Positions 5,074 through 53,901 of a stretch of DNA of 64,000 nucleotides are shown here, piece after piece (the stretch's first letter is position 1; the number at the start of each line of letters is the position of its first letter). Source of the stretch: an uncultured Bacteroidales bacterium (lineage in GTDB: Bacteria > Bacteroidota > Bacteroidia > Bacteroidales > UBA932); the NCBI GenBank assembly GCA_946403855.1, contig CAMJBH010000001.1, forward strand, positions 124,001 through 188,000. Reading direction: 5' to 3'. The position numbers were made by a program, and so were the translations under genes. Below the pieces are notes generated by a model, which had not been told where the DNA came from, made no database searches, and saw only the letters and a program-made list of their open reading frames with translations.

Positions 5074-5105
5074 CAAATATAGTAATTTTGGGGCAAACAA
5101 CCAAA
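5074..5105 (-). promoter_or_regulatory. Promoter of the rimP-nusA-infB operon
   Basis: On the minus strand TTTG (5105-5102) is followed after exactly 20 bases by TATATTTG (5081-5074). This fits the Bacteroidota sigma-ABfr pattern TTTG-N19-21-TAnnTTTG. Transcription would begin near 5067, giving a leader of about 48 bases before rimP. The -33 element touches the outer edge of the large palindrome at 5105-5184. Confidence 0.7.
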
Positions 5106-5184
5106 TTTTTCAGAGGGCCCATTGCCTCCGGTGCCCTTTTCCCATGTTTTATGGGCACCGGAGGCAATGGGCCCTCTGAAAAAT
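5105..5184. repeat. Large palindrome with conserved loop (copy 1)
   Basis: Two 32-base arms (5105-5136 and 5153-5184) are perfectly complementary. They enclose the 16-base loop TTTTCCCATGTTTTAT (5137-5152, plus strand). The loop closely matches those at 11895-11963, 51289-51355 and 53825-53901, while the arms do not. It lies between divergent rimP and pnuC, and neither arm is followed by a U-tract on either strand, so it is not a standard terminator. A TAnnTTTG-like box just to its right (5189-5196) could drive pnuC. Confidence 0.9.
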
Positions 5185-11894: not shown

Positions 11895-11963
11895 TCCGGC
11901 CTGTGCCTTGCCTGTGGTCCATAAAACCTGGGCATAAGGACCACAGGCAAGGCACAGGCCGGA
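11895..11963. repeat. Large palindrome with conserved loop (copy 2)
   Basis: Two perfect 26-base arms (11895-11920 and 11938-11963) enclose a 17-base loop. Read on the minus strand the loop is TTATGCCCAGGTTTTAT, which aligns with the loops of the copies at 5105-5184, 51289-51355 and 53825-53901; the arms are unrelated to theirs. It lies between the divergent lipoprotein and proS genes, so it is not a terminator between them. Neither side has a U-tract. Confidence 0.9.
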
Positions 11964-33010: not shown

Positions 33011-33056
33011 CACATAACACGAGCCAGGGGGTGCTGCGAACGGCACCCCCTGGCTC
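33011..33056. repeat. 46-bp hairpin repeat, left copy
   Basis: This is an exact copy of 33890-33935. It contains the palindrome GAGCCAGGGGGTGC (33021-33034), loop TGCGAACG, and GCACCCCCTGGCTC (33043-33056). The two copies flank the AT-rich DUF5034 gene in direct orientation. Confidence 0.85.
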
Positions 33057-33889: not shown

Positions 33890-33935
33890 CACATAACACG
33901 AGCCAGGGGGTGCTGCGAACGGCACCCCCTGGCTC
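33890..33935. repeat. 46-bp hairpin repeat, right copy
   Basis: This is identical over 46 bases to 33011-33056, including the flank CACATAACAC and the palindrome with loop TGCGAACG. It is in the same orientation as the left copy. Confidence 0.85.
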
Positions 33936-33950
33936 GAATAAGGCTCAAAA

Positions 33951-51288: not shown

Positions 51289-51355
51289 CGGCCGGCAGTG
51301 TGCCCCGAGCCCCATAAAACTTGGGTAAAAGGGGCTCGGGGCACACTGCCGGCCG
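51289..51355. repeat. Large palindrome with conserved loop (copy 3)
   Basis: Two perfect 25-base arms (51289-51313 and 51331-51355) enclose a 17-base loop, TTTTACCCAAGTTTTAT on the minus strand. The loop matches those of copies 1, 2 and 4; the arms do not. It lies between the M23 peptidase stop (nine bases away) and miaB. No U-tract follows on the minus strand, so it is not a typical terminator of the M23 gene. Confidence 0.9.
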
Positions 51356-53824: not shown

Positions 53825-53901
53825 CGGATAATAAACTGCTACGCTACGGAGCCCTTTTGTCTATGTTTTACGGGCTCCGTAGCGCAGCAGTTTATTATCC
53901 G
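53825..53901. repeat. Large palindrome with conserved loop (copy 4)
   Basis: Two 30-base arms (53825-53854 and 53872-53901), with a single A-C mismatch, enclose a 17-base loop TTTTGTCTATGTTTTAC on the plus strand. The loop matches copies 1-3. It begins just past the folD stop and lies upstream of the phosphohexomutase promoter. There is no U-tract on the minus strand after it. Confidence 0.9.

Follow-up and report, generated by a model that had tools for sequence, protein, structure and literature searches.

In rolling-circle replication origins of the geminivirus type, a conserved loop is recognised within a variable stem that needs only to pair. REP and REPIN elements with their RAYT genes are described, in the cited parts of the respective reports, as short, many-copy, mostly intergenic palindromes found in related species only, for which recognition of single-stranded DNA has been proposed (PMC6006769, PMC8266576, PMC3733652); their stems are given there as short, with 6-13 bp in the GTAG families and 8-9 bp in the CGTC families, and the loop as usually short (PMC3733652). 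MITEs and other miniature mobile palindromes are small, non-coding and dispersed, and are present or absent at orthologous sites (PMC10969869, PMC2229807). For inverted repeats in general, template switching has been reported to homogenise the arms and to invert the spacer, repeatedly at one site (PMC8604942), and to be able to maintain hairpins, loop inversions included (PMC8794818). The quasipalindromes treated in the portions cited, with arms made identical, inverted spacers and repeated flips, are isolated repeats, unrelated to one another, whose spacers are short (2-5 bases in the yeast table; PMC8604942, PMC8794818, PMC7202029).

The hairpins described here came to attention as four palindromes in a 64-kb window, by which we mean the whole stretch of DNA analysed. 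The original prediction of four long palindromes around a conserved loop was confirmed on both counts: each hairpin is found with the arm length and pairing that had been given for it, and the loops, 16-17 bases long, can be aligned when written in motif orientation (Table 1). A scan of the window for hairpins with arms of at least 18 returned these four and one terminator-like hairpin with a 4-base loop.

Table 1. Coordinates, loops and genomic setting of the four hairpins in the window.
Hairpin	Position	Strand	Arms	Pairing	Loop	Flanking genes	Orthologous sites
1	5105..5184	+	5105-5136 / 5153-5184	32 bp, perfect	5137-5152, TTTTCCCATGTTTTAT	RimP-like gene and pnuC, divergent, on either side	hairpin in G118 (loop in same orientation) and G119 (loop inverted)
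2	11895..11963	-	11895-11920 / 11938-11963	26 bp, perfect	11921-11937, TTATGCCCAGGTTTTAT on minus strand	proS on one side, minus-strand gene without family match on the other	imperfect hairpin in G023 and G063; none in G064, G117, G118, G119
3	51289..51355	-	51289-51313 / 51331-51355	25 bp, perfect	51314-51330, TTTTACCCAAGTTTTAT on minus strand	miaB and upstream M23-peptidase-like gene	hairpin in G119 (loop flipped)
4	53825..53901	+	53825-53854 / 53872-53901	30 bp, one A·C mismatch	53855-53871, TTTTGTCTATGTTTTAC	folD and phosphohexomutase gene	G119 site without hairpin

The same window holds, at 33021-33056 and 33899-33936, two near-identical hairpins of another kind (GAGCCAGGGGGTGC / loop TGCGAACG) around a 210-aa open reading frame without a Pfam match, with a further hairpin-like stretch directly behind the second; none of 426 loci contained the 32-base core of these two.

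The observation is real, and the family is far larger than the four cases. A covariance model was built from 17 source-genome hairpins with 16-base loops (MAFFT alignment A2; alignment A1, with 28 hairpins, was excluded from model building since its gap fell at the outer end), and it recovered 54 distinct hairpins from the source assembly, which is 82% complete (E <= 0.001; 60 rows, 6 of them both-strand duplicates). A search with the loop pattern and an inspection of the flanking arms had been proposed along with the original prediction: with one mismatch allowed, the pattern matched the source genome at 36 places and its reversed control at 1, and 35 of the 36, compared by hand, coincide with covariance-model matches, the exception (C11:61333) having weak arms. 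A chance origin of the association between loop and arms is therefore rejected. When 733,564 bases, chosen mostly for holding family matches, were scanned with no requirement for the loop, 138 hairpins (arm score at least 18) overlapped family members and 9 lay outside, of which 2-3 look by eye like members with a drifted loop.

Unless stated otherwise, the counts below refer to 149 hairpins from 12 genomes with arms of at least 18 and loops of 13-19 bases, loose loop-scan matches in L212, L215 and L207 being left out; the tests for foot motifs and target-site duplications used 144 of them, five having incomplete flanks, and the list of sites shared between genomes was drawn from a wider hairpin set minus L212 and L215. 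Another comparison of orthologous sites, from which the L121/L274 case below is taken, covered the full set, where L212 and L215 form one more pair. A number of contigs break off within a hairpin, which palindromes would lead one to expect, and the copies with 50-bp arms near contig ends in L152 and L154 may be assembly echoes. Hairpins with identical arms and a single different loop base occur, on the other hand, in assemblies of different origin (RUG13810 L132/L185 and RGIG9677 L147/L187), which argues against an assembly artefact.

Covariance-model matches were present in 13 of 101 genomes of the genus, the source included, under stricter filters with 50 candidates scored per genome. With more candidates scored, G023 gave 20 rows, G064 16 and G063 8, and the genomes reached through exact matches gave 47 (RGIG9266), 23 (RUG11144) and 5 (RUG12750), both-strand duplicates included in all six figures. 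Those relatives that have named records are metagenome assemblies of rumen or omasum Bacteroidales. An order-wide sample of 393 genomes, searched at low sensitivity with 13 candidates scored per genome, returned the source genome as its only match. In 379 kb from six relatives with few or no matches we found hairpins with 3-10-base loops, the known copies of G011 and G103, and a single hairpin next to the G103 copy. In six other genomes and two viral contigs, exact 20-base matches to the loop lack complementary flanks, and the viral model matches span 20 loop bases only; the idea that the loop motif by itself marks a broader element of bacteria or phages was accordingly discarded. Related hairpins with other loops, such as TTTTTACTTGGTTTTAT, were seen at L408:9796-9944 (G103), L166 (G090), L167 (G011), L129 (source) and L260 (G118), and may represent a second type of loop used in other species. 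At L212:2942-2989 and L215:3329-3376, G023 and G063 share an orthologous hairpin with identical arms and a different loop.

What identifies a member of the family is the loop, with the consensus TTTT-(n)-CCCA-w-G-TTTTA-y and a CC/GG closure in almost every copy; it is 16 or 17 bases long in 131 of 149 hairpins. Loop identity is 0.815 between orthologues and 0.756 between unrelated copies, compared with 0.482 after shuffling; this conservation is partly built in and overstated, because detection requires the loop motif or the model, and both loop and stem. The arms, 20-32 long in 141 hairpins, are close to CTCCGGGGCCC in consensus at positions 1-11 from the loop, carry only 0-0.15 bits of information at positions 13-29, and rise to a T-rich 0.39-0.62 bits at positions 30-31, where only the 46 and 27 longest arms contribute. 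Identity of the outer arms is 0.431 between orthologues and 0.295 between unrelated copies, and within the same genome 86 of 2392 pairs of outer arms score at least 7, against 20 when shuffled. The earlier statement that the arms share no sequence is thus contradicted by both the apical consensus and this resemblance, which indicates arms of common ancestry that have since diverged. No near-identical pair was seen among the 51 source-genome copies compared, the best agreeing in about 22 of 29 stem pairs, and there is therefore no sign of a recent burst.

These properties set the hairpins apart from the described systems. Compared with REP and REPIN elements, the arms and loops are long, identity resides in the 16-17-base loop, the stem drifts and the loop flips, and a GTAG or CGTC foot is lacking: within 20 nt upstream of 144 hairpins, GTAG occurs at 9 and CGTC at 4, with about 9-10 expected per 4-mer for equal base frequencies. 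Unlike MITEs, they have no conserved outer termini, as the low information of the outer arm demonstrates, and no target-site duplication was found, the longest direct repeat in the flanks averaging 3.22 against 3.19 in a mispaired control (144 hairpins); nor is any base strongly preferred in the 12 positions on either side of the same hairpins. The likeness to rolling-circle origins lies in a stem that merely pairs around a loop that would be recognised, but here there are many chromosomal copies and no linked replication gene. In contrast to the quasipalindrome cases, a whole interspersed family with one conserved loop is involved.

Pairing of the arms is nearly complete: 4049 of 4209 arm pairs are Watson-Crick pairs, and 63 of the 149 hairpins are perfect. 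Among the 160 mismatches, G·T (53) does not outnumber A·C (61; others 46), and RNA wobble is therefore not what maintains the pairing. The 17-sequence model alignment showed 95% pairing and a covariation score of 0.993, compared with 0.195 when shuffled. In 12 alignable stem comparisons, which were picked by hand (13 counted, one of less than half identity omitted, and one of those kept being a pair of source-genome copies), 58 changes affected both sides (32 transversions, 26 transitions) and 17 one side only. Across 45 orthologous pairs, not independent of each other, the arms pair at 95% within a hairpin, whereas the 5' arm of one species pairs with the 3' arm of the other at 51%; for the outer part of the arm the figures are 95 and 43%. 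Taken together, the paired changes, the difference between pairing within and across species and the lack of a G·T excess show that both arms change together at the level of DNA, and homogenised arms with paired multi-base changes are what template switching leaves behind. The paired changes are not biased toward transitions, although the mismatches are, a pattern not predicted by conversion of one base followed by copying alone; stem segments taken over from other copies may also play a part in the change of the arms.

The loop, in turn, is inverted between species. Its orientation is clear in 148 of the 149 hairpins (margin below 4 in the remaining one), and 25 sites carry hairpins whose flanks on both sides are orthologous across two to five genomes; 12 of these show an inverted loop in at least one genome, or 11 of 24 if one ambiguous site, where two hairpins lie side by side, is excluded. 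Such an inversion of the spacer within an otherwise unchanged repeat, again a mark of template switching, is cleanest between L121 of the source and L274 of G119, where 23 of 26 stem pairs are identical around an inverted loop. Three species share an almost unchanged stem foot at 5105 and differ in the upper stem, and one of them has the loop turned round; by eye, the imperfect G063 hairpin at 11895 also seems to have its loop turned. Against template switching, the loop never flips at the L020 site, which is common to five genomes, and a single switch event between near-identical strains was not caught, two of the alignable hairpins in the closest pair compared (G023/G063, about 90% flank identity) having almost unchanged stems and no flip.

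Hairpins are also present or absent at orthologous sites. The 11895 site is free of a hairpin in G064, G117, G118 and G119 (0, 8, 13 and 35 bp between the aligned ends), the 53825 site in G119 (34 bp), the L023-1986 site in G023 (3 bp), and the L114-5964 site in G023, G063, G064, G117 and G118, with an apparent half hairpin in G119. Since the 11895 hairpin is common to the source, G023 and G063 and missing from relatives with more similar flanks, the comparison points to loss at this site. At L362 (G064), orthologous to L116:2052-2124 where the source has a family hairpin, a long palindrome was noticed by eye whose loop seemingly contains two small hairpins. When the source arms were sought in 12 hairpin-free orthologous stretches, the G119 remnant included, the best local scores were 4-7.5, compared with 26-30 for the arms themselves; L023 against G023 is a marginal exception (one arm 7.0, shuffled 95th percentile 6.0), one arm of 11895 against G119 lies just at the 95th percentile, and the remaining comparisons are within chance. 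With essentially no trace of an arm at the hairpin-free stretches compared, formation of the stems from nearby DNA, by copying at insertion, is unsupported.

The interpretation that accompanied the original prediction, a regulatory hairpin or else a mobile or recombination site with a stem newly formed out of neighbouring DNA, template switching being the example given, therefore stands in part only. Template switching as the cause of the perfect arms is supported by the absence of a G·T preference, the paired changes and the loop inversions; the origin of stems from neighbouring DNA is opposed both by the hairpin-free sites and by the family likeness that paralogous arms retain, and a regulatory RNA hairpin is disfavoured for reasons given below. 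The best reading is a family of REP-like palindromic repeats that is specific to this lineage and identified by its loop, and in which template switching homogenises the arms and inverts the loops; on balance we consider it likely that this process keeps the arms of these short dispersed DNA palindromes (loop about 16-17, arms about 20-32) complementary and flips the loop. At a replication fork, the nascent strand would copy one arm, fold back or jump to the partner strand, and then copy the other arm, so that a change in one arm would be written into the other, and a jump spanning the loop would bring the loop out inverted. The loop itself is probably the recognition target of a putative protein, one that would bind or cut DNA at an extruded hairpin or cruciform and so constrain the loop sequence; since a cruciform displays both the loop and its complement, each on its own strand, flipping would not matter. 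The copies may once have spread as REP-like non-autonomous elements and would now be mostly old. More tentatively, as a possibility to which we give somewhat less than even weight, the hairpins could act as loop-addressed landmarks throughout the genome, where a putative protein reads the loop of the extruded cruciform, any complementary stem suffices, and replication renews the stem and flips the loop; the sites would then remain nearly perfect hairpins even as their stem sequences are replaced in the course of evolution.

The alternative that fares best holds that natural selection for a DNA cruciform presenting the loop to a protein maintains the pairing, with template switching playing a minor part. 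A conserved loop above a drifting stem in several species would fit this, as would the equivalence that both loop orientations should have in a cruciform. But compensated transversions (32 of the 58 paired changes) would require unfit intermediates at some 50 loci, loop inversions are not produced by selection alone, and the absence of hairpins from some orthologous sites shows that those sites are not essential, so we hold this alternative to be unlikely, if the most serious of those considered.

Mobilisation as REP/REPIN-type elements by the RAYT (TnpA-REP, Y1 HUH) transposases of the genus is less likely still. The patterns of presence and absence make mobility plausible, and to this extent the earlier suggestion of a mobile or recombination site holds, but no jump was demonstrated, and a search of the RAYT/Y1 genes revealed no protein partner or mobilising enzyme for the hairpins. 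Y1/RAYT genes were detected in 18 of 21 genomes tested (above the cut-off in 15), and RAYT-like genes near the query clade are present in each of the seven genomes that are the main bearers of the hairpins; TnpA-REP has been described as dependent in some cases on its hairpin's loop (PMC8266576), and the mainly Bacteroidetes subclass 2.6 has flanking atypical structures that are copied elsewhere in the genome (PMC6006769). Against this, hand counts place genes of the same kind (E <1e-40) in 4 of 9 low-copy genomes and in 14 of 22 genus genomes outside the hairpin matches (two of these 22, G022 and G024, are not shown by name in the search for the hairpins). A tree of 25 RAYT entries was disregarded, as at least two of them (L198 and L207) had been read in a wrong frame. 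Moreover, of 21 RAYT loci searched with the model, family hairpins occur at L226 of G119 alone, apart from one weak 28-bit match at L216, so that the RAYT genes examined, this one distant case apart, are not flanked by the family as they would be in a REPtron, and the hairpins lack the GTAG or CGTC foot. At L226 (G119:C9:4661-5366) the RAYT gene is split over two frames, and its contig also carries two family hairpins upstream, the nearer one 1.6 kb away. Several RAYT genes (L208, L222, L416, L418 and L420) instead adjoin a short hairpin of their own, with arms of 12-22 and loops of 6-12, within about 190 bp; these are unlike the conserved-loop family and are candidate cognate REPs. RAYT as the mobiliser is thus unsupported, and is kept as a rival.

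Structured RNA elements (regulatory leaders, small RNAs or RNase III sites) selected on the transcript have strong covariation with a conserved loop as their classic signature, which the hairpins show. Against this reading stand the lack of a preference for wobble pairs and the arrangement relative to genes. According to our home-made gene calls, with one duplicate removed, 28 source copies lie between codirectional, 13 between divergent and 9 between convergent genes, and one at a contig edge (12, 3 and 2 for the window's intergenic gaps of at least 60 bases); the claim that every copy lies 5' of a gene thus fails genome-wide for the 9 convergent of 50 classified source copies, and placement does not track gene orientation. 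Five of the 149 hairpins, none from the source genome, sit within an open reading frame, where coding signal is seen to either side of the hairpin. The mixed orientation of the loop noted among the first four recurs at the 28 codirectional source sites, where a hand count gave 13 loops running with the genes and 15 against them, and at 11-12 of the 25 shared sites the loop flips between species. A comparison with Rfam, also proposed earlier, gave no family match for the hairpins at the gathering score, in the window (two tRNAs only) or at 12 further loci; similarly, a literature search in a limited collection did not find the family described. As the main reading, an RNA element was therefore rejected, and we regard it as improbable. 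Ordinary bidirectional terminators sharing a loop by chance, suggested by G+C-rich hairpins in intergenic spaces, are highly improbable and were set aside, as had been anticipated, because the loop is long and conserved, 13 of 50 source copies lie between divergent genes and a T-rich tract (at least 6 of 8) follows the stem at only 6 of 290 ends, compared with 3 further out.

Palindromic repeat families in the literature examined are defined by a conserved stem or foot; in the family described here it is the loop that is conserved and the stem that is free. Through it, hairpin correction and loop inversion in bacteria can be followed in dozens of parallel natural records. The family also calls for caution: although strong covariation usually counts as proof that an RNA is functional, it can originate at the level of DNA, and the lack of a G·T preference together with a flipping loop distinguishes the two. 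If a loop-binding protein exists, it would represent a new system of DNA recognition by sequence plus structure in relatives of common rumen bacteria.
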